Positions 21,814 to 47,458 of a DNA stretch of 64,000 bases are shown here, piece by piece (within the stretch, counting starts at the first letter, position 1; every line of letters starts with the position of its first letter). The DNA comes from Caulobacter segnis ATCC 21756 (lineage in GTDB: Bacteria > Pseudomonadota > Alphaproteobacteria > Caulobacterales > Caulobacteraceae), in the NCBI RefSeq assembly GCF_000092285.1, contig NC_014100.1, positions 3,472,001 to 3,536,000 of the forward strand, written 5' to 3'. Below the pieces are notes generated by a model. That model saw only the letters and a program-made list of their open reading frames with translations. It made no database searches and was not told the origin of the DNA. The position numbers and the translations under genes are program-made.

Positions 21814-23163
21814 TCAGGCCTGGGTGTTCGGGGCCAGACGCCCCTCAGGGCCGCCCTGCTGGGGCGAAGCCATCGCGCGATCTTTCGACTTCACCCGGCT
21901 GCGGCGCAGGAAATAGAGGCCCGCCAACAGGGTGCACGCCGCGCCCACCAGACTTGTCGCGTAGATGCTGGCCACGAAGAAATTGAGCCAGTCCAGCGCG
22001 ACCATGGCGAAGTTGCGCCAGATCAGCAGGGCAACGCTGCCCAGATAGCCGGAGGCGTCCGCCACATAGATCAGGAAGCCCGCCGTGCCGACTTGCCCGC
22101 TATAGGCGACCATGCGGTCGAACAGCATGGCGTTGAACGGGGTGTAGGCCATGTAGATGCCCGCCCCCGTCAGGATCATCCAGGTCAGCGGCGACAGCAT
22201 GTGCGCCTGGAAGGCCAGGGTCGACAGACCCAGCGTGACGAAGCCCACCAGGATGACGCCATGCATGACCAGAAGGGCGCGTAGATTGTCCCGCACCAGC
22301 ATCACCGCGCCCAGGACGCCCAGCGCGATCACCGCCACCGGCAATTCGCTGGCCGTGAACACGTCCGAGGCCTCGCCAAAGCCCAAGGTCGTCCAGATCT
22401 CGGCGGCGAAGTTGTCGCGGAAGTCCCGCAACGCCGTCAGCAGGATGTAGGACAGCACGAGCAGGACGATCCCTGGGGCGTAGGTCGCCAGGAAGGCGCG
22501 GCGCTGGGCGCTATCCATGGGCTGTCGGCGCACGCGGGCCGCCTCGTCCTCGGCGTTGGGCGGCGGAAGCTGGGTGAGCGCCCAGACCGAAACGGCCAGC
22601 AGGGGCATGAAGACCGCGCCCGTGGCGGCCGGCATCCAGAAGGCCGAGACGTGGATGTCGCTCATCAGCCACTTGCCGACTGACTTCACCACGCCGGAGG
22701 ACAGGATGAAGCTGGCGCAGAGGATGGCGCCCAGCACCTCGGAGGTCCGCCGCCCCTCCATATATCCGAACACCAGTCCCCAGATCATGCCCAGCGGCAG
22801 CCCGTTCAGGAACAAGGCCAGGACGTTCCACGGCGCCGGGATCATCGCGAAGGCCAGCAACGCGAGCCACGAAGCGCCGATCAGCCCGAGAATGGCCGCG
22901 CCGCGGCGCGCGGGGGCGATCTCGGAGATGACCTTGACGCCGATGAACTTGGACGCCGCGTAGCCGATCACCTGAGCCAGGACGAGGGCGATCTTGTAGT
23001 CGATCGCGAAGCTCCAGCCCTCGACCACGCCAAAGGTCGCCGCCGCGAACGGCTTGCGAAAAGCGTACATCGAGAAGTAGGCGCAGAAGCCCGCAAGGCC
23101 GGCGAACAGGGCGAATGCCAGCGGATGAGCGCGCTCGAGCCAGCGCCGAGGACCAGATGTCAT
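21814..23163 (-). CDS. MFS transporter, DUF5690 type
   Basis: 449 residues with about 12 membrane segments. The motif YFSMYAFRKPFAAATF near the N-terminus recalls the glycerol-3-phosphate/hexose-phosphate antiporter group, whose members carry phosphorylated solutes, and the family is usually labelled DUF5690. It lies behind the GntR gene on the same strand, with an operator 26 bp upstream of its start. The setting suggests it imports the phosphonate, its ester, or a headgroup released by the neighbouring phospholipase; this is inference. Confidence 0.82.
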   Translation of the reverse strand: MTSGPRRWLERAHPLAFALFAGLAGFCAYFSMYAFRKPFAAATFGVVEGWSFAIDYKIALVLAQVIGYAASKFIGVKVISEIAPARRGAAILGLIGASWLALLAFAMIPAPWNVLALFLNGLPLGMIWGLVFGYMEGRRTSEVLGAILCASFILSSGVVKSVGKWLMSDIHVSAFWMPAATGAVFMPLLAVSVWALTQLPPPNAEDEAARVRRQPMDSAQRRAFLATYAPGIVLLVLSYILLTALRDFRDNFAAEIWTTLGFGEASDVFTASELPVAVIALGVLGAVMLVRDNLRALLVMHGVILVGFVTLGLSTLAFQAHMLSPLTWMILTGAGIYMAYTPFNAMLFDRMVAYSGQVGTAGFLIYVADASGYLGSVALLIWRNFAMVALDWLNFFVASIYATSLVGAACTLLAGLYFLRRSRVKSKDRAMASPQQGGPEGRLAPNTQA

Positions 23164-23188
23164 GGGAACGCCCCCTGATGAAGCGCTC

Positions 23189-23200
23189 TGGTCTATACCA
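23189..23200. promoter_or_regulatory. Operator O1, TGGTCTATACCA, before the MFS gene
   Basis: A 12-bp inverted repeat (TGGT-N4-ACCA) located 26-37 bp upstream of the MFS start. The identical 12-mer occurs before the phospholipase gene. Its complement, TGGTATAGACCA, is as I recall the site bound by the GntR regulator PhnF of mycobacteria, so the adjacent GntR protein is the likely binder. Confidence 0.7.
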
Positions 23201-23233
23201 TCGACATGTCGGCTCGATGACGCTCCGACGCCC

Positions 23234-23953
23234 CTACCGGACGCGGATGTCCACGCTTACGGTCAGGGCGTCGTGACGCCAGTACTCACGGTCGAACTCC
23301 ACCACATTGCCCTGGGCGTCGTAACAGGTGCGGACCAAGCTAAGGCCCGGCAGACCGGACTTCACGCGCAAGGCCTCGGCCTCGCCGCGCGTCAGGGCGC
23401 AGGGCCGCATGTCGACCTTGTTCCGCGCGACGCCAATGCCATAGACCGACTTCAGGACGCTGGTCAGGGAGCCGTTCAGATCGTGCTCGATCAGGCCGGG
23501 CGCGCGCGCCGCGTCGACGATGATGCTCTCGATCAGCACGGCCCGGCCGTCGATCGAGCGACGCCGGTGGATCCAGTACATCGGCGCGCCCACCGGCCGC
23601 GAGAAGATCTGGGCCAGCACGCCGTCGCAGGCGATCTCGACCTTGCTGAGCGTTTCGGTCTCGGGTCGCCGGCCTTGCGCCTCGACATAGGACATGAAGC
23701 CTTCCCAGCGGGTCGGATCATAGACCACCGGCGGCGGGGAGACGTACCAGCCGCTGCGGTCCTTGCGATAGATGATCCCCTCGGCCTCGAGCTGAAAGAG
23801 CGCCTCGCGCACCGTACCGCGGGCCACGCCGCCGCCGATCTGCAACTGGCGTTCGGACGGCAGCCGCTCGCCGGGCTTGAACTCTCCAGCCGTGATGCGG
23901 GCGGCGATGTCGTCGCGCACGCCGATATACTGAAGACTGTCGGGCTGTTGCAT
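23234..23953 (-). CDS. GntR-family regulator with UTRA domain (PhnF-like)
   Basis: 239 residues. A winged helix (PGERLPSERQLQIGGGVARG, then TVREALFQLEAEGIIYRK) is followed by a UTRA ligand-binding domain (about 85-235; PVGAPMYWIHRRRSIDGRA, REYWRHDALTVSVDIR). UTRA regulators often sense small metabolites such as sugar phosphates or phosphonates. The gene is between the transporter and phospholipase genes, both of which carry the TGGTCTATACCA palindrome, so it probably represses both and the TonB operon until ligand is present. Confidence 0.9.
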   Translation of the reverse strand: MQQPDSLQYIGVRDDIAARITAGEFKPGERLPSERQLQIGGGVARGTVREALFQLEAEGIIYRKDRSGWYVSPPPVVYDPTRWEGFMSYVEAQGRRPETETLSKVEIACDGVLAQIFSRPVGAPMYWIHRRRSIDGRAVLIESIIVDAARAPGLIEHDLNGSLTSVLKSVYGIGVARNKVDMRPCALTRGEAEALRVKSGLPGLSLVRTCYDAQGNVVEFDREYWRHDALTVSVDIRVR

Positions 23954-24088
23954 CGAACGACCTGGCCGGCGGTCGAATCCGCCGGGCGCAAGGATGTGAG
24001 GGGAGGCGCCCCCGGGTCAAGGAACCGATCGGCTTCAAGCGCCTGACATGGCGATGTCATGAAAGGTTCGCGATCAAACGCTTCAATC

Positions 24089-24100
24089 TGGTCTATACCA
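24089..24100. promoter_or_regulatory. Operator O2, TGGTCTATACCA, before the phospholipase gene
   Basis: Identical to O1 over 14 bp (TCTGGTCTATACCA) and placed 25 bp upstream of the phospholipase ATG, in the gap between this gene and the divergent GntR gene. It would block transcription of the phospholipase and could allow autoregulation of the GntR gene. Confidence 0.72.
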
Positions 24101-24124
24101 AACTGGATTTGAGAGGATTGGGTC

Positions 24125-26248
24125 ATGGCGACCAACCGACGCTCGTTCCTGCGCGCCGCCGCCGCTGGCGCCACCTCCAGCCTGCTCCACACCACCATCG
24201 CCCGCGCCTTGGCGATCCCGGCGCGCCATCGAACCGGCACGATCATGGACGTCGAACACGTCGTGATCTTCATGCAGGAGAACCGAGCGTTCGATCACTA
24301 CTTCGGAACGCTGAACGGCGTGCGGGGGCTGGGCGACCCGCGTCCGCAGCGGTTGCCCGGCGGAGCCTCTGTGTGGCGCCAGCCCAGCCGGGAGCATCCC
24401 GACGGTTTCGTCGCGCCGTTCCATGGCGACGCCTCGGTCACCAACGCCTACACGGTCGACGGCTCAGACCAGGGCCACCAGGCGGCGATCACCATCGTCA
24501 ACGGCGGGCGCTATGACCAGTGGGGTCACTCGGGCGAGCTGCACAAGCGGATGGTTTACTACAAGGCCTCCGACCTGCCCTTCTATCACGCGCTGGCCAG
24601 CGCCTTCACCGTCTGCGACGCCTACCACTGCTCGACCCTGACCCAGACCTACCCCAACCGCCTGCACCTGTGGACGGGCTGCAACGGCGGCGGGAAGGTC
24701 GGCGGCGATCCCGAGATGAGTAACTACGGCGAGGACGAGACGCCCAGCGCCGACATGGCCACCGACAAGGTCATGGCCAAGGGGCCGTACGACTGGACGA
24801 CCTACGCCGAACGGCTCGAGGCGGCCGGGATAAGTTGGAAGGTCTATCAGGAGTACGACAACTTCGGTGACAACATCCTGTCGGTGTTCAAGCCGTTCCG
24901 CCCCTGCGCCAAGGATTCGTCCTTCTACGCGCGGGGTCGATCTTGGGTGTCGGAGCACAAGACCGGCGCCGACCGCACCCGCTCGGACGGCGAGCAACTG
25001 GTCGAGGCCTTCCGCGCCGACGTCGCCGCCGATCGCCTGCCCCAGGTCTCCTGGATCGTCACCGCCGCCGACCTTTCCGAGCACCCCCAGGCCGAGCCCT
25101 CCAAGGGCGAACATGTCTGCGCCGAGCTGATCAAGGCGCTGGTCGATCATCCCGAGGTGTTCGCCAAGACCGTCTTCATCGTCAATTACGACGAGGCCGG
25201 CGGCTTCTATGACCACATGCAGCCGCCGATGCCGCCGCTGACCCCGCAACAAGGCTGGAGCTCGGTCTCGGTCGCCGGCGAGAGCAAGGACTACGGCCAG
25301 GCCGACGTCGCGAACAAGGGCGCTCACCCCCTGGGCCTGGGCATCCGCGTGCCGGCCATCGTCGTCTCGCCCTGGACGCGCGGCGGCTTCGTCTGTTCGG
25401 AGGTGTTCGACCACACCTCGACCCTGCGCTTCCTGGAGCGGCGCTTCGGCGTGCGCGAGGAGAACATCAGCGATTGGCGCCGCACCATCTGCGGCGACCT
25501 CACCTCGGCGTTCGATTTCGCTGCGCCGAACCAAGACTGGGCGACCGTGACCCTGCCGGCGACGGCGGACTACATGCAGCGCGTGGCGCGTTCCAAGGCC
25601 GCGCCGAGCCTGCGTATCCCGACCATCCAGACGGCGTCGATCCAGGACGGACCGCAGCGCGGCGCGCGCGCCCTGCCCTACCTGCTGTCCGCCGACGCGC
25701 GGGTGAAGGACGGCAAGGTCTGGATCGATCTGGTCAACGCCGGGCGCGCCGGCGCGGTGTTCCAGGTGTTTGACAACACCGACCGGGACGGCCCCTGGCG
25801 CTTCACCCTGGCGCCTGGCCAGGCCTATGCGGCGGGTCATTGGAACCACGCCGGCCGCGCGCCCGGCCCCTATGACCTCACCGTCCACGGCCCGAACGGC
25901 TTCTACCGTCGCTTCGCGGGGGACGCCTCGCGCTCTCAGCCCTCGATCAAGGTCTTGCCGGACGCGCGCTCGCGGCTGGTTCTCCAGCTGACCAGCGAGC
26001 GCGCCGGCCTCGTCATCGCCGAGATGGACCAAGCCTATCCGCTATCGGAAGGCGAGGCTCGCCAGACCGTGGGCCTCAAGCCCGCGCGCGCGGTTCAGGC
26101 GGCTTGGGACCTTCGCGGCAGCGACCATTGGTACGACCTGACGCTGACCCACCCGGACGACCCCACCTTTCTTCAGCGCCTGGCCGGCCACATCGAGACC
26201 GGTCGCGCCAGCCGCACCGATCCCGGCATCGGGCGCATGCGCCTCTAG
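24125..26248 (+). CDS. Tat-exported phospholipase C, phosphocholine-specific type
   Basis: 707 residues, the usual length of this family (about 690-730). The N-terminus is a Tat signal (NRRSFLRAAAAG). A phosphoesterase domain follows (about 40-450), with VVIFMQENRAFDHYFG, the Thr/Pro-Asn-Arg motif TQTYPNRLHLWTG and IVNYDEAGGFYDH. Two beta-rich C-terminal domains (DUF756 type, 500-700) complete it. Members cleave phosphatidylcholine or sphingomyelin. Here it lies in a phosphonate locus under the same operator, so it may act on phosphonolipids or related headgroup esters. That substrate is inference. The HD protein gene follows after 23 bp. Confidence 0.9.
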   Translation: MATNRRSFLRAAAAGATSSLLHTTIARALAIPARHRTGTIMDVEHVVIFMQENRAFDHYFGTLNGVRGLGDPRPQRLPGGASVWRQPSREHPDGFVAPFHGDASVTNAYTVDGSDQGHQAAITIVNGGRYDQWGHSGELHKRMVYYKASDLPFYHALASAFTVCDAYHCSTLTQTYPNRLHLWTGCNGGGKVGGDPEMSNYGEDETPSADMATDKVMAKGPYDWTTYAERLEAAGISWKVYQEYDNFGDNILSVFKPFRPCAKDSSFYARGRSWVSEHKTGADRTRSDGEQLVEAFRADVAADRLPQVSWIVTAADLSEHPQAEPSKGEHVCAELIKALVDHPEVFAKTVFIVNYDEAGGFYDHMQPPMPPLTPQQGWSSVSVAGESKDYGQADVANKGAHPLGLGIRVPAIVVSPWTRGGFVCSEVFDHTSTLRFLERRFGVREENISDWRRTICGDLTSAFDFAAPNQDWATVTLPATADYMQRVARSKAAPSLRIPTIQTASIQDGPQRGARALPYLLSADARVKDGKVWIDLVNAGRAGAVFQVFDNTDRDGPWRFTLAPGQAYAAGHWNHAGRAPGPYDLTVHGPNGFYRRFAGDASRSQPSIKVLPDARSRLVLQLTSERAGLVIAEMDQAYPLSEGEARQTVGLKPARAVQAAWDLRGSDHWYDLTLTHPDDPTFLQRLAGHIETGRASRTDPGIGRMRL

Positions 26249-26271
26249 AGCCTCTACCTGACGGATATCGC

Positions 26272-26847
26272 ATGACCACCAGTTCCCCGGCCGACGCGTT
26301 CCTGGCCGAGATCACCGACCTCTTCACGCGCCTCGGCGGCCTGCACTACGGAGAAGACGTCACCCAGATGGAGCACGCCCTGCAGGCGGCGCATCACGCC
26401 AAGCTGGACGACGCCCCTCCCGCCCTGGTCGCGGCGGCCCTGCTGCACGATATCGGCCACCTGATGCAGAAGATCGGCGAGGACGCCGCCGACCGTGGCA
26501 TCGACACCCGTCACGAACAGATCGGCGCTGGCTATCTGGCTCGCGTCTTCGGCCCCGAAGTGACCGAGCCGATCCGCCTGCATGTGGCCGCCAAGCGCTA
26601 TCGCGTCGCCGTCGACCCCGCCTACGGCAGCCGCCTCAGCGACGCCTCGCAGCAGAGCCTTGCCCTGCAGGGGGGCCCGATGAACGCCGATGAGATCAAG
26701 ATCTTCCTGGCCGACCCGTTCGCGGCGGCGGCGCAGAAGCTGCGCGGCTACGATGAGGCCGGCAAGGATCTGGACGCGGAGGTCGCGAACTTCGAGACCT
26801 ATCGCGCGCTGCTGCGCGGCCTGATCGACCAGGCCGGCAAGCTCTAG
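26272..26847 (+). CDS. HD-domain protein of phosphonate loci, PhnZ-like
   Basis: 191 residues from the ATG at 26272. The HD core is LLHDIGH, with upstream GGLHYGEDVTQMEHALQ and downstream RHEQIGAGYL, RLHVAAKRY and KLRGYDEAG. The intervals between candidate metal ligands (His to HD 24, HD His to next His 18, last His to Asp 57) agree with what I remember of PhnZ, the diiron oxygenase that cleaves the C-P bond of 1-hydroxy-2-aminoethylphosphonate; one interval is 23 rather than 24. It matches the phosphonate-operon HD family. No PhnY gene is nearby. Its stop shares a CTAG with phnX. Confidence 0.82.
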   Translation: MTTSSPADAFLAEITDLFTRLGGLHYGEDVTQMEHALQAAHHAKLDDAPPALVAAALLHDIGHLMQKIGEDAADRGIDTRHEQIGAGYLARVFGPEVTEPIRLHVAAKRYRVAVDPAYGSRLSDASQQSLALQGGPMNADEIKIFLADPFAAAAQKLRGYDEAGKDLDAEVANFETYRALLRGLIDQAGKL

Positions 26848-27656
26848 ACGGGTCGGTCGCCCCGCGCGATGCGGGCTTCGATCTCAGCCAGCGCCGGGCC
26901 CAGCTCGGCGATGGTCTCGACCACATAGTGCGCGCCGGCGTCCGCCAAGGCCTTGGCGGACGCGGCGACGCGCGCGGCGCGCTCCTCGACCGGCAGGGCG
27001 GCCAGCGCCGTCTCGCTCAGGCCCACGCCGTTGCCGGACGCCGAGACTCCGACAGCCCAGGCGCCGGCCTCCAGGCCCTCGGTGATCCCCACCACCGCGT
27101 CGTCGACCTTGACGCAGGCCCGCGCCGGCCAGGCGCCCAGCGCGACCAGCGCCTTCCACATCATCAACGGCGACGGACGGCCCTCGGCCGTCTCGCCCGC
27201 GCAGACCACGACCTCCGGCGCATAGCCCTGGTCGGTCGCCAGCGGCAGGATGTCGGCCATCATCGGGCGCGTGTAGCCGGTGGTGGAGCCGATCTTCACG
27301 CCGCGCGCGCGCAGGCCCGCGGCCAACTCGGCCGCGCCTGGGATCAAGGTCGAGCAGTCGCGCGCCGCCGCGCGCATCTTGGGCTCGACGGCGTCGTGCA
27401 GACGATCGACATCCGCTTCGTTGCTCGACTGGCCGTAGCGCGCCAGCCAGCCCTCGGCCACGCGCGGCATGGCCAGCAGGGCGCGGACATGATCACGCTT
27501 GGCCCGCCCCATGTCGCGGCGCGCCTCGGCCTCGGTGATCTCGACGCCGGCCTCGGCGAACACCTCCCGCAAGGCCAGGACCGGCGCGCAGCAGCCAAAG
27601 TCGATCATCGTGCCGGCCCAGTCGAACACGACGGCCTGGATAGGGCTGTGGCTCAC
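26844..27656 (-). CDS. phnX: Phosphonoacetaldehyde hydrolase
   Basis: 270 residues, the family's normal size. PhnX splits phosphonoacetaldehyde into acetaldehyde and phosphate. It is a HAD-fold enzyme: nucleophile region VVFDWAGTMIDFG, the cap-domain lysine that forms the Schiff base in RRDMGRAKRDHV, motif II in KIGSTTGYTRPMM and the acidic motif in CVKVDDAVVGITEG. The start is a GTG overlapping the stop of the oxidase gene (GTGA), so it is the last cistron of the minus-strand operon. No PhnW aminotransferase gene is in the window. Confidence 0.95.
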   Translation of the reverse strand: MSHSPIQAVVFDWAGTMIDFGCCAPVLALREVFAEAGVEITEAEARRDMGRAKRDHVRALLAMPRVAEGWLARYGQSSNEADVDRLHDAVEPKMRAAARDCSTLIPGAAELAAGLRARGVKIGSTTGYTRPMMADILPLATDQGYAPEVVVCAGETAEGRPSPLMMWKALVALGAWPARACVKVDDAVVGITEGLEAGAWAVGVSASGNGVGLSETALAALPVEERAARVAASAKALADAGAHYVVETIAELGPALAEIEARIARGDRPV

Positions 27657-28786
27657 GCGAAGGCTCCGTCGGAAAGGTTCAGCAAATCGTCGGCGACGGT
27701 TTCCGCCAGCCCGAAGGCCGTCGAGGCTCCGGTCCCGCCCGTCACCACGACGAGTCGAACGCCCGGCATGGGCGTCTCGACCAGGCTATGCCCCTCGGCC
27801 GAGGCGTAGGTCCCGGTCCAGCGTTCGAGGACCATCGGCGGCGCCTGGCCGAACACCTGCGCAAACTCGTCGAGGATCAGGGCGTCAACGTCGTCTCGCG
27901 CGAACGGATCGGGCGTTAGCGCATAGTGATGGCTGTCGCCGACGACCAGCGAGCCGTCAGCGCTCTGGACGACGATCAGGTGGACGCCGTGCTCCAGATG
28001 CGCCGGCTGCTCGGCTTGAAGACGGGCGCGCAGGGCCCTGGCCTCCGGCAGATCGGCGTAGCCGAGATAGCGGACAAGTCCGAGGTCGGACATGACGGGC
28101 GCCGGCAGACGCCAGCCCGGATCGGCCAGTCGTAGCATCTGCAGCTTGCAGCGCGTCACGCCCGCGCGGGCGAAGCTGTCGGGAAACAGGGTCACCAGAT
28201 CATCGCCGGGACAGACGACGATGGCGTCAGCTTCGATGGCGCCGACGGACGTCTCCAGCCGCCCGGTCTCGACACCGCGAACGGCCGCGCCGCGCAGGAA
28301 CGCAACGCCATGCGCGGCCTCTAGCCAGGCCGCCAGACGCGGGATCGCGCTACGCGACTCCACGCGCAGATCGACGCTGCTGGTGAGGCCGCCGAGACCC
28401 CCCCCTCGCGTCGGGAGCCGATCGCCGAGCGCTTCGGCGTCTCGCCACGCGCAGCCGTCGGCCATCTCGGTCTCCAGAAAGGCTTCGAGCACCGCCTTGG
28501 CTTCGGGGCGTCGGGCGATCATCGTCAGGCCGCGCTGAAGAACCTCGACCCCCGCGGCGTCGGCGACTTCGCGCCAGACGTCCGCCGACCGGCGCGCGTG
28601 GCGCCAGACCGCGCCCCGCGCCTGCCCGGTCACGGTCACGAAGCCGAAATTGCGCACCGAAGCGCCGTTAGCCTGGGCGTCACGGTCCACGACGACCACA
28701 CGCTTGCCCAGCCGCGCGGCGGCCAGGGCGTGGGCCAGCCCCACGATACCCGCGCCGACGACGGCGACGTCGAAACCTTGCTTCAA
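27653..28786 (-). CDS. FAD-dependent oxidoreductase of phosphonate loci (PbfD-type)
   Basis: 377 residues from a TTG (28786) that overlaps the upstream stop; the open frame extends 106 codons further but that part is not coding-like. The FAD-binding motif is VAVVGAGIVGLAHALAA, the C-terminal FAD loop is VVTGGTGASTAFGLAE, and VRNFGFVTVTGQ is typical of the DAO-like family (recalled as TIGR03364) that sits beside PhnX. Members have been reported to oxidise N-alkyl aminoethylphosphonate to phosphonoacetaldehyde, replacing PhnW. That activity is recalled and inferred for this protein, not shown. Confidence 0.82.
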   Translation of the reverse strand: MKQGFDVAVVGAGIVGLAHALAAARLGKRVVVVDRDAQANGASVRNFGFVTVTGQARGAVWRHARRSADVWREVADAAGVEVLQRGLTMIARRPEAKAVLEAFLETEMADGCAWRDAEALGDRLPTRGGGLGGLTSSVDLRVESRSAIPRLAAWLEAAHGVAFLRGAAVRGVETGRLETSVGAIEADAIVVCPGDDLVTLFPDSFARAGVTRCKLQMLRLADPGWRLPAPVMSDLGLVRYLGYADLPEARALRARLQAEQPAHLEHGVHLIVVQSADGSLVVGDSHHYALTPDPFARDDVDALILDEFAQVFGQAPPMVLERWTGTYASAEGHSLVETPMPGVRLVVVTGGTGASTAFGLAETVADDLLNLSDGAFA

Positions 28787-29751
28787 GACAGACCTTCCCG
28801 TTGGCGCGCCGCGTCTTCGGCGACCAGATGCCGCAGGACGCGCTTCTCCAGCACCAGCATCGCGCCGGCGCCATTGGTCCGCATCACTAGACCGTCCGCC
28901 AGCGGATGAGCCGCTTGGCGGACCGCCATCGCCAAACGCTGAAACTCCCAAGCCGCATCCCCATCGACGCCGTGCAAGGCGCAGAGCTGCCGCCAGTCGA
29001 ACGCGAAGCTGTCCAGCAGTTGGGCGAAGCGCGCGGCTCTCTGCTGCGCTTCCCGCCCTTCGACGGCGACCGCCAGCTCGCCCTTCAGGTCGTCGAGCAG
29101 CCACTGAACCTCGGCGGCCGGCATGATGGGCGAGCGCTGATTGATCTCGGTCAGCAGCGGATGATCCGCGTTCGGATCCCAGCCCGCCTTAGGCCACTGC
29201 CCCCTCGGCGGCGGGGGAGCCTGGACGAACCGCCAGAAAGCCGCCGTGCCGGTCGTGTCGGCGACCAGGTGGATGCGTTCAAAGCTGGCGTTGTTCTCGA
29301 CATGATGCCGTCGCCAGTTGTCGAAGACCCAGGCCTCGCCGGCGCCCATATGCACGACCTCGCCGTCGCAGTGGAAGCGGACTTCCGGCCAGGTGAAGAC
29401 CGGGATGTGCAGGCGCACACGCGTATGCCAGTGGTAGTTGATGTCGGCATGTTCCGGCACGCCCGCGCCCGGCGCCAAGCGCATCAGCCGCGAGCGGCTC
29501 CAGACGACGCCGAAACCCGCCAAGGCCTGCTTCAGGTAGGGCATGGCTTCCAGCCAGGGCGTCGCCGCCATGCGGCCGTGCACCCCGTCGTTCTCGCCGC
29601 CCCCGGTGGTGATGAGGCGGACGGCGCTGTTGCCTGGAACCTGATCGGGATGCGCGACCCAGGCCTCGGCCGGCAAGGCCGCGACCTCGGCCTGCAAGCG
29701 CTCGACGTCGAACAACAGGGGCAGTTGAAAGAAGGGTCGTGAAAGCCGCAT
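28783..29751 (-). CDS. Asp/Asn beta-hydroxylase-fold oxygenase
   Basis: 322 residues. The first 200 form a 2-oxoglutarate/Fe(II) oxygenase domain of the AspH type, with GAGVPEHADINYHWHTR (His-X-Asp metal pair), RLHIPVFTWPEVRFHC and VFDNWRRHHVENNASFERIH (distal His and 2-oxoglutarate Arg). The remaining 120 residues are helical and lack a recognised domain. It has no signal peptide and so is probably cytoplasmic. It is third from last in the minus-strand operon; its stop overlaps the FAD oxidase start, and it begins 3 bp after the TPR-sulfotransferase. Substrate unknown. Confidence 0.85.
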   Translation of the reverse strand: MRLSRPFFQLPLLFDVERLQAEVAALPAEAWVAHPDQVPGNSAVRLITTGGGENDGVHGRMAATPWLEAMPYLKQALAGFGVVWSRSRLMRLAPGAGVPEHADINYHWHTRVRLHIPVFTWPEVRFHCDGEVVHMGAGEAWVFDNWRRHHVENNASFERIHLVADTTGTAAFWRFVQAPPPPRGQWPKAGWDPNADHPLLTEINQRSPIMPAAEVQWLLDDLKGELAVAVEGREAQQRAARFAQLLDSFAFDWRQLCALHGVDGDAAWEFQRLAMAVRQAAHPLADGLVMRTNGAGAMLVLEKRVLRHLVAEDAARQREGLS

Positions 29752-29754
29752 GGG

Positions 29755-31671
29755 TCAGACCGTCTCCGTCCGCGGATCGCCCAGCGCCGCGCGCAGCGGC
29801 TCAAGCCATGGCGCGTAGCGCTTCCACTGCTCCAGCCCCTCCCGCCCGATAGGCTGGCGAACCTGTTCGGAGCTGGGCGTGCGGATGCCGCGGCGCGTCT
29901 CGTGGAAGCGCAGGCACTGCGGCTCGAAGTCCAGCCCGCCATGGGCCAGCATCCGCCGCGTAGCGCCTTCAAGATCGTCGACCACGTCCTCGTAATGAAC
30001 GCGGAGCACACGTCCGGGCAGCACGCTGTCCCAGTGCCGCATCAAATCCAGATAGATCCGGTAGTAGCCGGCGATGTCGTCCAGGCCATAAGTGAACTCC
30101 TGGTTGGTCGTCCCGAACAGCTGCTTGAAGTTGCTGAAGCAACAGGCCATCGGCTCGCGCCGTACGTCGATGATCGTCGCCTTCGGCAGGATCAGATGGA
30201 TCAGCCCGATGTGCCAGAAGTTGTTGGGCATCTTGTCGAGGAAGAACGGCCGCCCGAGCCGACGATAGGCCCGCGTCTCGTCCAGGAACCGCTCTCCTAG
30301 CGCACGCGCCTGCGCGGCGGTCAGGTCCAGCAGCGCGGCGGGATCGGCCGGCAGGCCGCAATCGGGATCGCGGCCGCACAACTCGCCCGCATACCGGCCG
30401 ATCTCGGTCAGCTCGTGCGTCCCCTCGATCTGGGAATGGGACGCCAGGATCTGCTCGATCAGCGTCGAGCCCGAACGCGGCAGGCCCAGGACGAAGATCG
30501 GCGCCGGATCGTCAGCGCCCCAGCCGACGCGACGGGCGAAGAGCTCCGCGGTCAGGACCTCCTTTAGGCGCTCGGCGCAGCGTTCGGCGACGTCGGGCCG
30601 ATAGCGACTGGACGCGCGGCGAAGGGCGTTGCCCCCTGCGTAGAAGCCCCATGACTCCGCATAGTCGCCGTGGTCCTCCAGCGCCTTGCCGAGGGCGAAG
30701 CGAAGATAGACCCGATCCATGTCGGCGAGCGCCGGCGCGGCCTCGGCGGCGCGCATGCGAACGATGTCGTCGTCAGTGAAGCGATAGGTCTTGAGGTTGG
30801 CGAGACTGAACCAGGCGACGCCGTAGTCCGGCCGTGCGGACAAGGCGGCGCGATAGTCGGCGACCGCCGCGGCGCCACGTCCCATCGCCTTCAGCGCATT
30901 GGCCCGCCACAGACGGAGGTCGGCGATCTCGTCCGCCGACTCGCAGGGCGCCGCCAGCAGTCGCGCATAGAGGTCGATCACCGGCTCGAAGTCGCCAAGT
31001 CCAAGGCAGGCCACGCCGTAGAGCTTCAGGAACGCGCGGCTATCGGGCGCGTCGATCAGCAGCCGCTCGGCCTCGCGCCGGGCTAGACGGTGCTTCTGCC
31101 CCTGCAGCAGGACCATGGCGTAGTCGAAACGCGCCTCGTGATAGTCCGGCGCCTGATCGAGGATCGCCGCCAGCACGGCCTCGGCGTCCTCCAGCGCCCC
31201 GCGCTCGAGACGGATGCGCGCCAGCAGGCGCAGGGCGCCGACGCTCTCGCCCGCAGCACGCAGATGATCCTTCAGAACCTCTTCGGCGGGCTCAAGATCG
31301 CCGTCGGCCAGCAGGCTTTGCGCCACGACGATGGCTTGCGGGAGCTGCTTCAGCCCGGCGAGCCGCTGGGCCGCCGTGTCCGCGTCGGCAAGCTCGCCCC
31401 GCAGGCGGTGGAGTTGCTCCAGCATGTCCCAGCAGGCCGGAAGCGCCGGGTTTAGCGCCACGGCCTCGCGCAAGGCGGCGATCGCCGCCGAGCCGTCCCC
31501 CAAAGCGATCAGGCATTGCGCCCGCTCCTGATGGAGACGACCGAAGCGCGGGTGCTCGGCCCGGAGGCGATCCAGCAGCAACAGAGCTTCAGCGACCTGC
31601 CGCTGCTCTCGAAGCATCCGCGCCTCGCGCAGCAGAGCCTCGCGCTGGTCCAGGTCCTGGGACGGGATCAC
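29755..31671 (-). CDS. TPR-repeat sulfotransferase
   Basis: 638 residues from a GTG overlapping the upstream stop. Residues of about 5-380 are tetratricopeptide repeats (pattern ALREAVALNPALPACWDML, repeated about every 34-36). The C-terminal 260 form a sulfotransferase: phosphosulfate loop FVLGLPRSGSTLIEQILASH, then FFLDKMPNNFWHIG and the 3'-phosphate site DVRREPMACCFSNFKQLF. These bacterial proteins resemble tyrosylprotein sulfotransferases and use PAPS. Combined TPR and transferase domains suggest a protein or peptide substrate, which is unidentified. Confidence 0.9.
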   Translation of the reverse strand: MIPSQDLDQREALLREARMLREQRQVAEALLLLDRLRAEHPRFGRLHQERAQCLIALGDGSAAIAALREAVALNPALPACWDMLEQLHRLRGELADADTAAQRLAGLKQLPQAIVVAQSLLADGDLEPAEEVLKDHLRAAGESVGALRLLARIRLERGALEDAEAVLAAILDQAPDYHEARFDYAMVLLQGQKHRLARREAERLLIDAPDSRAFLKLYGVACLGLGDFEPVIDLYARLLAAPCESADEIADLRLWRANALKAMGRGAAAVADYRAALSARPDYGVAWFSLANLKTYRFTDDDIVRMRAAEAAPALADMDRVYLRFALGKALEDHGDYAESWGFYAGGNALRRASSRYRPDVAERCAERLKEVLTAELFARRVGWGADDPAPIFVLGLPRSGSTLIEQILASHSQIEGTHELTEIGRYAGELCGRDPDCGLPADPAALLDLTAAQARALGERFLDETRAYRRLGRPFFLDKMPNNFWHIGLIHLILPKATIIDVRREPMACCFSNFKQLFGTTNQEFTYGLDDIAGYYRIYLDLMRHWDSVLPGRVLRVHYEDVVDDLEGATRRMLAHGGLDFEPQCLRFHETRRGIRTPSSEQVRQPIGREGLEQWKRYAPWLEPLRAALGDPRTETV

Positions 31672-32297
31672 GGCGCGGCGCTCGCGCGCAGGAAAGGCGC
31701 CAGCCAGTCGGGATCCGGCTGGTCGGCGTCGTAGTACTCGAAGATCAGGTGGATGCGGTCGGCGTCACCGTCATTGCGAACCCAGTGGGGCCCGAGATTG
31801 TCGACCTCGACCGCCTCGCCTTCCGGGAAGTGATGCTCGGCGCCGCCGAACAAAGACACGACGCCAGGATTGGTCGTCAGCGGCACGTGGATCTTGTGCG
31901 GCCACTTGGCGGCGGGATTGGCGTCGATGTGCGGATGGATCACTCCGCCCGGCGGCATTCGCGCCAGCATCACCCGAGGAAAGACGCCTCGCGCATAGCC
32001 GTAGTCGCGAACAGCGTGCGCCAGTACCGGCTCCAGCAGACCTCGCCAAGCCGTCCAGGCCGGGCGATCGTGCGAACCACGCCAGTCGCGCGGACTGTCG
32101 ACAAAGCGGAAGACGATGTGCCGGGTCGCGTCCAGCACTTCGAACTTGTTGGGCTTGGCGGCGTTCTCGGCGGCCCAGACGTCCTCGGGGATCGCCGCAA
32201 CGGCCGCGCGAAGCGCCGTGATGTCGACAGGACCCAAGGGGCGCACTGTCCGGGTCTTGCGCGGATTGGCCGTCAGCTCGAGCCGCGCCGCGCTCAT
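31668..32297 (-). CDS. Second Asp/Asn beta-hydroxylase-fold oxygenase
   Basis: 209 residues, ATG start overlapping the upstream stop by 4 bp. The 2-oxoglutarate/Fe(II) site is visible: PPGGVIHPHIDANPAAKW (His-X-Asp), KIHVPLTTNPGVVS and VDNLGPHWVRNDGDADRIHL (distal His, Arg). It lacks the helical extension of the other copy and their sequences differ outside the core. It is the middle cistron between the two sulfotransferases. Hydroxylation of Asp or Asn in a protein or peptide is the family's known reaction; the target here is unknown. Confidence 0.86.
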   Translation of the reverse strand: MSAARLELTANPRKTRTVRPLGPVDITALRAAVAAIPEDVWAAENAAKPNKFEVLDATRHIVFRFVDSPRDWRGSHDRPAWTAWRGLLEPVLAHAVRDYGYARGVFPRVMLARMPPGGVIHPHIDANPAAKWPHKIHVPLTTNPGVVSLFGGAEHHFPEGEAVEVDNLGPHWVRNDGDADRIHLIFEYYDADQPDPDWLAPFLRASAAP

Positions 32298-32932
32298 CGC
32301 ACGCCCTCGAAGTCGTAGCCGAACAGCTCGAGATCCTGGGCGTAGCGCGCGGCGACGCCGTCGATCAGCGCTTGATCGTAATAGGCGCGGTAGTCTTCGT
32401 GATGGGTGCCGTTGACGCGATCCAGAGGGCGCGGGGCGATACCGATCCGATCGCAGAGGGCGTCGTAGGAGCCCTGCATGTCCTCGACCCGTCCGACCTG
32501 ATCGGCCAGCAAGGTCTCGCCGTCATCGTCGACGAGCAGCCAAGCCTGCGGCTGGAACAGGATGTGTCCCTCGGGCGGATCCACGCACAGGAAGTGGCGC
32601 ATCGCCTCTCGCGGCTGACGCTGAAAGACGTCGCCGCCACGCAGCATGAAAGCGCAGTACGAGACGAACCGGTCGAATGGATTGCGCACGAAGGCGAACT
32701 TGAAATAGGCCGCGAAGGCCTCCTCGCCGAGGTAGGGCCGCACCTGGCGCAGCGACAGGTGACCATGCTGGATCGCCGCGAGCTCGGACCAGGGAAAGCG
32801 CTTGTTGACGAACAGGCCGACCTGCTCGACGTCCTCGTCCCCCATCTGCTCGCGCAAGGCCTGTCGCACGGCGTGGGTGCCGGTCTTGGGCACGGCGGCG
32901 AAGATGAAGCGGTGTCGATGGGAAACGATCAT
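32294..32932 (-). CDS. Sulfotransferase family 2 protein
   Basis: 212 residues from the ATG at 32932; a GTG five codons earlier (32947) is possible. The PAPS-binding start is FIFAAVPKTGTHAVRQAL and the second site is FKFAFVRNPFDRFVSYCAFM, typical of sulfotransferase family 2 (carbohydrate or small-acceptor type). It has no TPR part, unlike the other transferase in the operon. It is the first gene after the TonB receptor, separated by about 61 bp containing a terminator-like hairpin, and overlaps the next gene by 4 bp. Confidence 0.85.
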   Translation of the reverse strand: MIVSHRHRFIFAAVPKTGTHAVRQALREQMGDEDVEQVGLFVNKRFPWSELAAIQHGHLSLRQVRPYLGEEAFAAYFKFAFVRNPFDRFVSYCAFMLRGGDVFQRQPREAMRHFLCVDPPEGHILFQPQAWLLVDDDGETLLADQVGRVEDMQGSYDALCDRIGIAPRPLDRVNGTHHEDYRAYYDQALIDGVAARYAQDLELFGYDFEGVR

Positions 32933-32949
32933 GTCTTCCGCACGCACGG

Positions 32950-32978
32950 AAAAGCGCCCCGCTCAGAGAGCGAGGCGC
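32950..32978 (-). terminator. Terminator-like hairpin between the TonB receptor and downstream operon
   Basis: On the minus strand GCGCCTCGCTC pairs with GAGCGGGGCGC (11 bp, one G-U) across a 3-nt loop and is followed by TTTT. It lies 15 bp after the receptor stop. As the next genes have no other obvious promoter, it probably acts as a partial terminator that makes the receptor more abundant than the enzymes. Confidence 0.65.
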
Positions 32979-32993
32979 CGTCCGTGGTCCTGG

Positions 32994-35795
32994 TTAGAAC
33001 TTATAGCGGAGGCCAACCATGTAGGTGGAGCCGCTCTGGGTCTGGTTATAGAGGTACTCGTTCTGACCCCAGAACTGCGTGTCCTTCTGGTTCGTCAGAT
33101 TGATCGCGTTCAGCGTGACCTGGAGGGCCTCGGAGACGTTGAAGAACGCCGAGGCGTCCACATAGGTGGATCCCTGGAACCCGCGGGTGCTGGCGCTCAT
33201 CAGGCTGTCGCTGTGACCGGTGAACCACTTGTTGCGATGGCTCATGGAGCCGCGCAGGCCCCAACGCTCGGTCTCGTAGTAGAGCGTGGCGTTGTAGCTG
33301 GTGTTCGAGATCCCGGTGAGCGCCTCGTCGGCGTCCACGTAGGTGTAGTTCACCACCGCGCCGAGCTTGTCGAACGGCGCCGGCAAGAACGAGAATTGGC
33401 CCTGCGCGGCCAGCTCCACGCCGGTCAGCTGCTTGGTGCCCGCGACATTGATCGGCATCTCGAACTCTTTGACGATCGAGTTCGCCGTCGCGCCCGGGAT
33501 CGTGGTGTAGGGCACGCCCGTCTGGCTGAACGGCACGTTTTCGAGCGTCTGCGTGCCGATGAAGTTCTTGATGCTCTTGTGGAACACGCTCGCCGAAAGC
33601 AGCCCGTCCTGGCCGAAGTAGTACTCGGCCGCCAGATCCAGGGTGGTGTCCTTGAAGGGCTTCAGGTTGGGATTGCCGCGCGAGGCGGTGATGTCGCCGG
33701 TTTCGGACTGGAACGCGCTGCCCTTGGCCGCCATCGAGCCCAGGCCCGGACGGTTCAGGTTCTGGGTCGCCGAGAAGCGCACCTGAACCTCAGGCGTCAG
33801 CTCCACAACCGTGTTCAGGGCCGGCAGAACGCCCGAATAGCTGCCCTTCACGTCCGTCGTGCCCAGATACGCGTAGTTGTCGCCCTGGATCCAGCCGGTG
33901 CCGTGGGTGTCGGTCTGATAGCCGCGCAGGCCGATATTACCTCGGAAGCGCTTGCCCATCAGCTCGCTGTCCCAGTCCGCCTGAACGTACTCGGAGACGG
34001 TCTCTTCCGAGGTCTCGTAGACGTTCTCGATGTCCTGCAGCGCGCCGCCCGTGCCGTCCTTGTTGGGACCGAAGCGGTGGTATTCGTTGTACTTGGCGAA
34101 GGTCTTTTCGTAGTCGCCGACCAGCCACGAGCCGAACTCGTTGGTGAACACGCTGGTGACGTCGGCGACCGACTTGCCGCGCATCTTGGACCGGGTTCCA
34201 TTGACGTTGTCGTCGTAGAACAGGTCGCGGCCGCCTTGCGTGAACTTGTGGTAGGCGACGCCGGCGCGCAGGGTCCACACGTCGTTCAGCGCGTACCTGG
34301 CGTTCAGCACGCCTTCCTTCAGTTCCGACTGGTTGTTGAAGCCGCGATAGTAGAAGGAATCCAGCGCGTAGTTGGCCGGGTCGGTGGCGTTGAAGTTCGG
34401 ATAGGAGAACGTCGCCGATTGGCCGTCAGCGCCGTAGTTGGCGATCATGTTGCCCTTGGCGCGCATATAGAGCTTGTCGTCGTAGGGCGTCTTGTAGGTC
34501 GACTTTTCGTAACCGACGTGACCGTCGATCGTGAGACGGTCTGACAGGTCCCACTTGCCGGTCAGCGCGACCTGGTTGAAGCGGTTTTCATTCAACGAGC
34601 GACGATGCTCGCTGCCGAAGGTCGTGCCCGTGACATCGGTCAAGGTGACGTAGTTGCTGCTGTCCCACGCCAGGTTGTTGAGCACGGAACCCTTCTGGAA
34701 CTGCGACGGCCAGACCCCGCCCGCCGGCGTGTCGAACGCGAAGGACTTCGTCCCGGAGCCCAGCGGCCGCGTGGCCAGGTGATACTCGTTGCGGTGGGTC
34801 GTGAACTCGCCGTGCAGGACGTCGAGCGTCAGCAGGAGATTGTCCACCGGCTTCCATTGCACGGCGCCCGTCAGGCCCAGGCGCTCGGCCTTGGAGTTCC
34901 AGGACGAGATGCGGTTGCCGTCCGCGATGTAGAGGTCGCCGGACAGGAACTTGGCCTGCTGCGCGGCGGTCAAGTGGGAGATGTCCAGGCCGCTGGCGAC
35001 TAGCTTCTGCATGTCCGAGGCGGACAGCTTGTCGTAGTTGTAGGTGTTGTGGCCCTGCTCGGTCGTCTCACGCTTGCTGTAGGCGACCGAGACCGCCACG
35101 CCGAACTTGTTGTCCCAGTTCTGGCTGAACAGAGCCGCGATGCGCGGCTGGGTGTCCTTGGTGTACTCGTTGGTGCCCAACTTGACCGAGACAGCGCCCT
35201 TGCCGCCCGTCGCATAATCAAAGGGCTTGCCCGTGAACAGGCCCACCGTGCCGGCCATGCCGCCTTCGTTCTGCGCGGCTTCGAAAGTCTTTTCGACCTC
35301 GACCCTCGAGAACAGTTCCGAAGCGAAGATGTTGAAGTCGAAAGCACGGTCGCGCGAACGCTGGCCGCGGCTGTCCTGCGCCGAGTCGACGTTGCCCAGC
35401 ACTTCCATGCCGTTGAGCTGAACACGGGCGAAGTCCGGCCCCAGACCCCGCAGCGAGATGCGGCGACCTTCGCCGGCCTCGCGGTTGATCTGGACACCCG
35501 GCAGGCGCTGCAGCGACTCGGCCAGGTTCAGTTCCGGGAACTTCGCCATGTCTTCGGCGACGATCGCGTCTTTCTGAATCACGGAGTCGCGCTTGATGGC
35601 GCGGGCGTCGGCGAGCGACTTGCGAAAGCCCGTGACGATGACCGCATCGACGGTCTCGCTGGCCGTCGAACCGTCCGAAGCCTGCCGCGCGAACGCAGCC
35701 GTGGCGCTGGCGTCAGCCACGAGCATCGCGACGGTGCACAGCAAAAAGCGCTTCAGATCCGAGCGCCAGGCTCGAATGGGATGTGACTTAGACAT
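32994..35795 (-). CDS. TonB-dependent receptor (TIGR01782-like), head of the phosphonate operon
   Basis: 933 residues from the ATG at 35795 with AGGGGA 6 nt upstream. It has a signal peptide (TVAMLVADASATAAFA), an N-terminal TonB-box-like VDAVIVTGFRKSL, a plug domain with AESLQRLPGVQINREAGEGR and ISLRGLGPDFARVQLNGME, and a barrel ending YMVGLRYKF. This long subtype is common in Caulobacter, often for sugars or complex organic ligands. It heads the operon containing two sulfotransferases, two oxygenases, the FAD oxidase and phnX, and is preceded by two operator-like palindromes, so its ligand is probably phosphonate-related. That link is inference. Confidence 0.92.
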   Translation of the reverse strand: MSKSHPIRAWRSDLKRFLLCTVAMLVADASATAAFARQASDGSTASETVDAVIVTGFRKSLADARAIKRDSVIQKDAIVAEDMAKFPELNLAESLQRLPGVQINREAGEGRRISLRGLGPDFARVQLNGMEVLGNVDSAQDSRGQRSRDRAFDFNIFASELFSRVEVEKTFEAAQNEGGMAGTVGLFTGKPFDYATGGKGAVSVKLGTNEYTKDTQPRIAALFSQNWDNKFGVAVSVAYSKRETTEQGHNTYNYDKLSASDMQKLVASGLDISHLTAAQQAKFLSGDLYIADGNRISSWNSKAERLGLTGAVQWKPVDNLLLTLDVLHGEFTTHRNEYHLATRPLGSGTKSFAFDTPAGGVWPSQFQKGSVLNNLAWDSSNYVTLTDVTGTTFGSEHRRSLNENRFNQVALTGKWDLSDRLTIDGHVGYEKSTYKTPYDDKLYMRAKGNMIANYGADGQSATFSYPNFNATDPANYALDSFYYRGFNNQSELKEGVLNARYALNDVWTLRAGVAYHKFTQGGRDLFYDDNVNGTRSKMRGKSVADVTSVFTNEFGSWLVGDYEKTFAKYNEYHRFGPNKDGTGGALQDIENVYETSEETVSEYVQADWDSELMGKRFRGNIGLRGYQTDTHGTGWIQGDNYAYLGTTDVKGSYSGVLPALNTVVELTPEVQVRFSATQNLNRPGLGSMAAKGSAFQSETGDITASRGNPNLKPFKDTTLDLAAEYYFGQDGLLSASVFHKSIKNFIGTQTLENVPFSQTGVPYTTIPGATANSIVKEFEMPINVAGTKQLTGVELAAQGQFSFLPAPFDKLGAVVNYTYVDADEALTGISNTSYNATLYYETERWGLRGSMSHRNKWFTGHSDSLMSASTRGFQGSTYVDASAFFNVSEALQVTLNAINLTNQKDTQFWGQNEYLYNQTQSGSTYMVGLRYKF

Positions 35796-35816
35796 GGAAT
35801 TCCCCTGCCCCAACTC

Positions 35817-35828
35817 TGGTATGGACCA
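35817..35828. promoter_or_regulatory. Operator O3, TGGTATGGACCA, before the TonB receptor
   Basis: One mismatch from the complement of O1/O2 (TGGTATAGACCA), keeping both TGGT and ACCA arms. It is 22 bp upstream of the receptor start, a position expected for repression. Confidence 0.55.
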
Positions 35829-36280
35829 GTGGCTTTAAGCAGGCTGCCACGACACCCGCGTGACAGTGTCCCCGGCTCTTGAGAAATTCCGCGCCAACCG
35901 CGCCGGGGGCGTTTTGTATGATATACAGCGGGTGAAGCGCCGAACGGATAGCCGGGAGACACGAGGCGGCGGGAAAGCTCAAAATTTTGGACTATACCAA
36001 ATCGTGGTGTGAGAGTGGATTTTCCCGAAGCCGCCCAGGATCGCAGAGAGGCTTCCGCCACGCGCCGCAGGAGTCTGTGACATTTGTTGGAACCACCGGC
36101 GCACAGCAGCGTTTGTGACCCCACGCGCCTTAGCGCGCACGGGGGCGTGGTGTTCATCTTGACGGTAAAATCTGACGCCAAGGTCAGCCGGCGCGACGCG
36201 CGCCCGTTGCCAGAACGGTTAGAATCGTCGCGCCAACTTCGAAACGTTTCATCGCCCAGCGCTCCGGCCTCGAGATAGTC
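35829..36280. other. Intergenic region between TonB operon and hybrid kinase operon
   Basis: Apart from the operator copy at 35988 I see no gene, RNA or clear terminator here. It must contain promoters for both divergent operons. A GCGCCGGGGGCGTTTT stretch (35911-35926) is GC-rich but does not form a clear hairpin. Confidence 0.5.
35988..35999. promoter_or_regulatory. Operator O4, TGGACTATACCA, upstream of the TonB receptor
   Basis: One mismatch from O1/O2 (T to A at position 4). It lies 193 bp upstream of the receptor ATG and 281 bp upstream of the hybrid kinase ATG. Paired with O3 it could allow looping or mark the true promoter. Confidence 0.55.

Positions 36281-47259: not shown

Positions 47260-47334
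<75 letters not shown>

Positions 47335-47383: not shown

Positions 47384-47458
<75 letters not shown>

Follow-up and report, generated by a model that had tools for sequence, protein, structure and literature searches.

In the PbfD-PhnX phosphonatase pathway, the third one treated in PMC10590968, enzymes of the PbfD type oxidise N-methyl-2-aminoethylphosphonate, and some of them also 2-aminoethylphosphonate (AEP), to phosphonoacetaldehyde, according to that paper. A locus of Caulobacter segnis ATCC 21756, contained in a stretch of 64,000 nucleotides (contig NC_014100.1, positions 3,472,001 to 3,536,000; this whole stretch is called the window), has the same core, namely an oxidase gene of family TIGR03364 beside phnX; none of the genes of the locus, the only ones searched for it, is a phnW. 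It also contains genes for a TonB-dependent receptor, a phospholipase C (PLC), an HD-domain oxygenase (Phn-HD), and a toolset of two putative oxygenases (AspH1, AspH2) and two putative sulfotransferases (ST2, and TPR-ST with its tetratricopeptide repeat, TPR, part); these are additions to the described pathway, as the main text of the same paper contains none of the terms “TonB”, “HD domain” and “phospholipase”.

As for Phn-HD, it recalls the PhnY-PhnZ and TmpA-TmpB pathways: among solved structures its closest relative is TmpB (6npa, 118 bits), with PhnZ at 99 bits, and residues H35, H59, D60, H81, H104 and D161 are invariant in 14 sequences. These positions are presumably the metal ligands. 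Unlike those pathways, the locus has no TmpA/PhnY-like alpha-hydroxylase among its genes, the rest of the genome not having been searched, and Phn-HD scores under the curated cut-offs (201.9 against 214.6 bits for the Phn-HD model, 165.1 against 300 for TmpB); it is therefore named PhnZ/TmpB-like only. Regarding uptake, the AEP transport systems AepXVW, AepP and AepSTU share with the locus a carrier of the major facilitator superfamily (MFS), and differ from it in that neither “TonB” nor “outer membrane” occurs in the main text of PMC8316502. Finally, PMC11208175 proposes that PhoB-regulated TonB receptors of Caulobacter crescentus import alternative phosphate donors; the receptor described here, in contrast, has putative GntR-type operators and is accompanied by the hydroxylase-sulfotransferase set.

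The catabolic enzymes of the locus are already known. The whole is read here, with a confidence just short of even, as a PhnR-like (GntR) regulon for the TonB-dependent scavenging of phosphonates down to free phosphate, in which the receptor has its own hydroxylation-sulfation toolset. To our knowledge, there is no settled answer to how phosphonates larger than free AEP pass the outer membrane of Gram-negative bacteria; a receptor with operators of the phosphonate-regulator type, conserved over several alphaproteobacterial genera, makes such uptake directly testable in the easily grown Caulobacter, and the genetic circuit that the receptor, the toolset and the phosphonate genes appear to share hints that this genus and its relatives harvest phosphonates by a dedicated route, which may involve modification of the receptor. 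The open-licence literature yielded no description of a TonB receptor under PhnR-type operators together with a PLC and phosphonate enzymes, nor of a receptor-linked AspH-sulfotransferase set, both being weak negatives; such a receptor regulon is likewise not described in the available text of PMC11208175, PMC10574752 and PMC8316502.

Regulator and operator-like palindromes

The gene between the carrier and the PLC encodes a GntR/UTRA regulator whose best NCBIfam model is PhnR, with a score under the curated equivalog cut-off (Table 1). The palindrome TGGTCTATACCA occurs in exact form before the MFS gene and before the PLC gene, and two versions with one mismatch each, TGGTCCATACCA and TGGACTATACCA, precede the receptor. 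At no more than one mismatch, only six sites exist in the 4.66-Mb genome, four of them in this locus, against one site for the reversed control pattern; the 8-kb surroundings of the two remaining sites (816897 and 3369412; L046 and L047, where L-numbers denote fetched loci or stretches and G-numbers genomes) yield no hits with the proteins of this locus at E 1e-8.

The sites recur in the Caulobacter relatives at similar distances from the genes. With one mismatch tolerated, nine of ten receptor genes have a site in the 260 bases upstream (eight at -32 to -35, the ninth at -185 alone), as do the PLC gene in 9/9 (-33 to -38) and the MFS gene in 12/12 (-35 to -38); the 14/14 before the GntR gene are largely the PLC site read from the other side, the gene for Phn-HD has one in 4/14, mostly where the PLC is absent, and none of 11 PbfD genes is preceded by it. 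For a wider survey, loci were collected by an AspH2 scan with one genome per species, which gave 114 relatives, of which 80 were kept and 55 classed by gene content as loci of the receptor unit, that is, the receptor, ST2, AspH1, TPR-ST and AspH2. In the 40 of these with a receptor match and enough upstream sequence, 28 receptor promoters, mostly from Caulobacterales and Sphingomonadales, have a near-start site at two mismatches or fewer, compared to 16 of 600 random stretches from the same loci, some of which include real sites. The putative sites shared by receptor, PLC and MFS genes support the view that the receptor and the phosphonate genes form one regulon; the GntR gene amid the locus and the shared operator-like palindromes are an addition to the initial annotation of this DNA.

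Pho boxes were tried as a second kind of regulatory signal and rejected: the repeats at 24043 (12/14) and 35849 (11/14) are near chance. Five shuffles of the window yielded one to four such sites each, so that the repeat at 35849, with similar ones in 3 of the 14 relative stretches scanned, is only suggestive.

Gene order, conservation and co-occurrence

On the minus strand, the genes run from 35795 down to 26844 in the order TonB receptor, ST2, AspH1, TPR-ST, AspH2, PbfD and PhnX, and the successive junctions are a 46-base gap, two 4-base overlaps, a 3-base gap and two more 4-base overlaps, so that PbfD overlaps both AspH2 and phnX; on the plus strand, PLC and then Phn-HD converge on phnX, which the 3' end of Phn-HD overlaps by 4 bases. 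Both the run and the converging pair had been reported in the initial annotation and are borne out, the tight spacing extending from ST2 through PhnX. Its claim of one transcript holds as a possibility for this strain and for roughly half of the fetched Caulobacter relatives; elsewhere, the receptor unit and phnX belong to different gene series, so that shared regulation is the conserved fact. A weak terminator-like stem is present in the gap after the receptor (32972-32955); stems of this kind are at chance level in the region (six, against a mean of 7.7 in shuffles) and a search of the region for sigma-70-type promoters found none (1.2 in shuffles), hence a single full-length transcript is neither shown nor excluded.

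Close orthologs of AspH1 and ST2 occur in the same 17 of 75 Caulobacter genomes (in G030 in pieces at contig ends), not counting as units the weak AspH1 matches of further genomes (28-40% identity) and four weak ST2 matches. The five-gene receptor unit is colinear wherever contigs are long enough, also in other alphaproteobacterial genera, and the phosphonate genes are rearranged in several ways around it. The shared set of 17 genomes and this colinearity speak for more than a chance arrangement. In this genome, in L038, L039, L040, L078 and L079, and also in L045 and L087, whose contigs are short, phnX comes after the unit within a single series; in L089, whose contig does not include the other genes of the unit, PbfD comes after AspH2. 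A series GntR-MFS-PbfD precedes phnX in L031, L080 and L082, and GntR-MFS-PbfD-PhnX leads into the receptor unit in L034 and L036; L081, L084 and L085 have phnX at another place in their genomes. L078 and L087 have the HD gene in the place of PLC-HD, with no PLC in the stretch, and a wider fetch placed MFS, PbfD, HD and GntR on the receptor side of the unit in L224, L227 and L228, together with PhnX in the last two.

The 55 unit loci are mostly from Caulobacterales and Sphingomonadales, with L157 under a Rhizobiales name and a few under broad names only. Clustering of their open reading frames, within the limits set by contig ends and 10-kb flanks, recovered TPR-ST in 54, ST2 in 47, AspH1 in 46 and the receptor in 45, followed by GntR (32), PLC (31), HD (26) and PbfD/PhnX (21). 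A DeoR-type regulator lies near the receptor unit in a cluster of 13 loci (L150:476-1321, the one examined with Pfam); in G118 (locus L155), Phn-HD is split over frames and receptor and PLC are in pieces, which may reflect a decaying locus or sequencing errors.

At the level of whole genomes, 43 unit genomes were examined, 12 of the 55 loci having been left out for their short contigs: an intact Phn-HD match of at least 141 bits is present in 42 and a fragmented one in the remaining genome, and PhnX exceeds its cut-off in 42. The idea that HD, and not PhnX, is the constant enzyme was dropped on this last count. Among the 75 Caulobacter genomes, 16 have both the unit and HD, one the unit only, six HD only and 52 neither (p = 1.3e-10, shared ancestry ignored), and the unit-only genome carries an HD fragment at a contig edge. 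In an order sample of 299 genomes, HD was detected in 20 at E 1e-20, and 12 have ST2 at E 1e-40; all genomes with a close ST2 (eight, at least 75% identity) have HD too, and the four with a distant one (51-64%) do not, giving 8/12 overall. This co-occurrence with Phn-HD and PhnX, and the shared palindromes, strengthen the earlier proposal that the receptor belongs with the phosphonate genes. A lack of conservation outside the strain, which had been named among the results that would speak against that proposal, was not observed: the unit is conserved in Caulobacter and in other alphaproteobacterial genera.

Proposed route from ligand to phosphate

The first step would be the import of a phosphonate-bearing molecule by the TonB receptor, whose regulon membership is supported at the sequence level; its plug and beta-barrel domains are both present and its N-terminus is signal-like by eye. 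The ligand would be a lipid or polymer that carries phosphonate, and the phospholipase suggests a phosphonolipid. The PLC has a solved relative (9gy2, 498 bits) and, by eye, a twin-arginine (Tat) N-terminus; judging from its family, it would remove an aminophosphonate headgroup, most simply from a phosphonolipid, and the DUF5690 carrier would then bring the headgroup in. A gene for a Ca-dependent phosphoinositide phospholipase C was seen immediately upstream of the receptor unit in L136 (L136:2642-3853).

Inside the cell, PbfD would make phosphonoacetaldehyde from AEP or N-methyl-AEP, and PhnX, a true member of its family by the curated cut-off, would free phosphate from it, both family functions being established. 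In a parallel branch, the HD oxygenase may split 1-hydroxylated headgroups, such as 1-hydroxy-AEP, into an amino acid and phosphate, in line with the chemistry of its family; with no TmpA/PhnY beside it, its simplest substrate would be a headgroup that is already hydroxylated. Last, ST2, AspH1, TPR-ST and AspH2 may constitute a cytoplasmic, receptor-linked toolset for the hydroxylation and sulfation of a protein or peptide, most probably the receptor before its export or a partner that it needs; this is the new and least certain part of the explanation.

The scheme agrees in part with that of the initial annotation, which led from uptake to phosphate: its tie to the receptor stands, and the oxidase step to phosphonoacetaldehyde is well founded on the PbfD-type enzymes of PMC10590968. 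It had left the AspH proteins and the sulfotransferases unexplained, and had given no role to HD, a near-constant companion of the unit.

The putative hydroxylation-sulfation toolset

In AspH2, residues H101, D103, H150 and R159 are invariant in 17 sequences, as are H123, D125, H171 and R181 of AspH1 in 16 and the stretches PKTGTH and VRNPFDRF of ST2 in 15. We take the HxD...H...R residues and the sulfotransferase loop stretches to bind the cofactors, and on these conservation alignments such positions are intact in the three proteins. The TPR part of TPR-ST matches OGT in the comparison with solved structures and its sulfotransferase part gives a weak match to protein-tyrosine sulfotransferase 8w5z (E 0.008); the nearest solved relative of AspH2 is L-proline cis-4-hydroxylase 4p7w (E 8.5e-6). 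AspH1 and AspH2 account for the only two PF05118 matches in the genome; neither matched an NCBIfam model, which speaks neither for nor against lipid hydroxylases. The four proteins have no export signal by eye, and the cofactors 3'-phosphoadenosine 5'-phosphosulfate and 2-oxoglutarate are cytoplasmic.

Relatives of the toolset were also found away from the phosphonate genes, in 25 loci (L183-L208 without L187), here called group B, which are mostly gamma- and betaproteobacterial, with two from Brevundimonas. Like the locus of the window, they have the same AspH2 domain and, in most cases, a TPR-ST relative and a receptor nearby (a TonB receptor is upstream on the same strand in 17/25). Unlike it, no HD, PhnX or PbfD was found in their stretches, and in 21/25 hydroxylase and sulfotransferase are one protein of fusion length (at least 593 residues). 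AspH2 aligns with the N-terminal half of 11 longer proteins at 48-61% identity over 305-317 positions; in the single fusion examined with Pfam (L186:10001-11824), the second half is a Sulfotransfer_3 domain, and in 10 of 11 fusions tested the second half weakly resembles the sulfotransferase part of TPR-ST (E 1e-9 to 2e-4). L186 also carries TPR-ST and TPR-AspH genes. The 28 unfused alphaproteobacterial AspH2 form one clade (support 0.93) nested among the fused ones (enclosing nodes 0.999 and 0.979). Of the group B genomes, 18/25 show no Phn-HD, many of these being metagenome-assembled genomes; L214 and L217 have relatives of the receptor, ST2, AspH1, TPR-ST and AspH2, and Phn-HD was again not found in their genomes, of which one is only 57% complete. 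Since relatives of AspH and of the sulfotransferases go together with TonB receptors even where the genome yielded no Phn-HD, they are read as partners of the receptor and not as phosphonate enzymes; on this reading, the set goes where TonB receptors go, and the link to phosphonates seems a later, special case.

The reverse arrangement, phosphonate genes without the toolset, exists too. L220 and L222 have GntR, HD, PLC, PbfD, PhnX and MFS alongside a different receptor (22% identical), AspH and sulfotransferases being absent from the stretch and no ST2 match found in the genomes; L225, L229 and L233 are alike, as is L232 except for PhnX, and in these four genomes the unit is elsewhere. L221 (6131-15015) contains a series PbfD-PhnX-MFS-HD-receptor-TPR-ST with no AspH, where TPR-ST is 52% identical and the receptor does not match that of the window at E 1e-6. 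In L121-L125, a receptor, HD and PLC occur together, joined by MFS in four of the five loci, and the stretches contain no AspH. They represent a second type of locus within the genus (L121:4106-13189 and its counterparts), with an HD of another clade, a PLC and mostly DUF5690; L121 encodes a LysR regulator as well as a PhoD-like phosphatase. In L126 (8427-10240), a third and more distant HD lies downstream of PbfD and PhnX and neighbours a gene for a GDSL lipase.

Interpretation and alternatives

Within the regulon reading, the leading guess for the target of the toolset is a protein made in the cytoplasm, the receptor first, given the OGT-like TPR part and the faint tyrosine sulfotransferase match. 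AspH1 and AspH2 would hydroxylate the receptor or its partner, and ST2 and TPR-ST would sulfate the new hydroxyls or tyrosines, producing the receptor's binding site; the set would once have been an AspH-sulfotransferase fusion with other TonB receptors, adopted later by the phosphonate regulon. This version of events is doubtful. The receptor-linked set and its natural fusions point to a chemistry of hydroxylation and sulfation that is associated with TonB receptors. A target site was sought among unit-specific columns of the receptor and the attempt was abandoned, as 283 columns conserved relative to other receptors are too many to pinpoint one.

Several points weigh against the regulon reading or its toolset part. 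We infer the ligand, the substrate of the toolset and co-transcription, and we know of no modified TonB receptor. At two mismatches, 12/40 receptor promoters have no palindrome, including those of all six Asticcacaulis loci (L151, L156, L158, L167, L168 and L177; the others are L140, L147, L148, L152, L157 and L180), and shuffled motifs reach a mean of 1.2/40 loci at the same tolerance, yet one permutation hit 23/40. The loci were found via AspH2, so that receptors of the same type without the toolset would escape. The profiles of ST2 and AspH1 have no solved relative at E 0.1, and in L220 and L222 AspH was searched for in the stretch only. The PLC scores as phosphocholine-specific, so that ordinary phospholipids may be its substrate. 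Finally, seven of the 25 group B genomes have Phn-HD, namely all four with unfused or contig-cut AspH2 (L194, L201, L202, L203) against 3 of the 21 with fused AspH2, and this association of unfused AspH2 with Phn-HD keeps a hydroxylase role alive.

The alternative that the toolset makes or edits a small molecule or lipid and not a protein is unlikely. The product would be a secreted binder retrieved by the receptor, or a sulfated, hydroxylated, phosphorus-free lipid used under phosphate shortage. The Asp_Arg_Hydrox family does include small-molecule hydroxylases as well as the lipid hydroxylases LpxO and OlsC, receptor-plus-tailoring operons exist for siderophores, and a weak Pho-box-like repeat lies before the receptor; on the other hand, no backbone-building gene is present among the identified neighbour clusters, many clusters not being identified, and the TPR part is similar to that of OGT, an enzyme that modifies proteins.

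A further alternative, that AspH1 or AspH2 is the alpha-hydroxylase feeding HD in the role of PhnY/TmpA, with the sulfotransferases as a separate matter, was initially favoured for the close association of HD with the unit; it was demoted by L220/L222, which have the same phosphonate set without AspH in the stretch, and by AspH-sulfotransferase genes, including fusions near TonB receptors, where Phn-HD was not found, and it is now held to be unlikely. It agrees with the presence of HD alongside both 2-oxoglutarate oxygenases in nearly every unit genome, with the distribution of HD in group B, with the lack of a TmpA/PhnY-like gene in a locus that holds the only PF05118 matches of the genome, and with the kinship of AspH2 to a proline hydroxylase. 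TmpA-like genes adjoin HD in L236 and L238, and L236 cuts both ways, being the HD locus in the genome of L203, whose HD is paired with a TmpA-like protein of its own. No PLC, PbfD, PhnX, MFS or GntR match was found around HD in six of the seven HD-bearing group B genomes; in L234, PLC, PbfD and PhnX are beside it. L121-L125 carry HD with no AspH nearby, and the sulfotransferases are left unexplained.

As for a regulon that chiefly harvests ordinary phospholipids or phosphocholine compounds, with the phosphonate enzymes as a side branch, the chance is low: the PLC exceeds the phosphocholine-specific cut-off and the phosphoinositide PLC of L136 and the DeoR-type regulators count in its favour, but PhnX and Phn-HD occur in 42 and 43 (one in pieces) of the 43 unit genomes, the best model of the regulator is PhnR, and L078 and L087 do without a PLC in the stretch.

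Features of the locus

Table 1. Positions of the genes and putative regulatory sites; coordinates here and in the text are those of the window unless an L-number precedes them.
Feature	Position	Strand	Basis
DUF5690 transporter (MFS), probable inner-membrane importer	21814..23163	-	PF18943 541.9 bits
GntR-type operator-like palindrome, exact TGGTCTATACCA, before MFS gene	23189..23200	+	pattern match
GntR/UTRA regulator, PhnR-like, between MFS and PLC	23234..23953	-	TIGR03337 240.4 bits (cut-off 296.75); PF00392 + PF07702
Operator-like palindrome, exact TGGTCTATACCA, divergent GntR-PLC intergenic region	24089..24100	+	pattern match
Phospholipase C, phosphocholine-specific type (PC-PLC)	24125..26248	+	TIGR03396 756.9 bits (cut-off 580)
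Phn-HD, PhnZ/TmpB-like HD-domain oxygenase	26272..26847	+	TIGR03276 201.9 bits
PhnX, phosphonoacetaldehyde hydrolase	26844..27656	-	TIGR01422 339.6 bits (cut-off 220)
PbfD/HpnW-type FAD oxidase, TTG start	27653..28786	-	TIGR03364 407.4 bits (cut-off 285.1)
AspH2, Asp_Arg_Hydrox (2-oxoglutarate oxygenase) with C-terminal extra part	28783..29751	-	PF05118 49.9 bits
TPR-ST, tetratricopeptide part + Sulfotransfer_3	29755..31671	-	PF13469 156.9 bits + TPR models
AspH1, Asp_Arg_Hydrox (2-oxoglutarate oxygenase)	31668..32297	-	PF05118 44.1 bits
ST2, Sulfotransfer_2 family	32294..32947	-	PF03567 54.1 bits, first 97 residues
TonB-dependent receptor, TBDR-1 type	32994..35795	-	TIGR01782 614.9 bits (above cut-off); PF00593 (beta-barrel) + PF07715 (plug)
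Operator-like TGGTCCATACCA, 1 mismatch, before receptor	35817..35828	-	pattern match
Weak Pho-box-like repeat before receptor, 11/14	35849..35866	-	match to Pho-box consensus
Second operator-like site TGGACTATACCA, 1 mismatch, farther upstream of receptor	35988..35999	+	pattern match

Beyond the locus, the window encodes a large hybrid histidine kinase with CHASE3, GAF and three receiver domains (36281-39712), divergent from the receptor, and two tandem tRNA-Gly(gcc) genes at 47260-47334 and 47384-47458.

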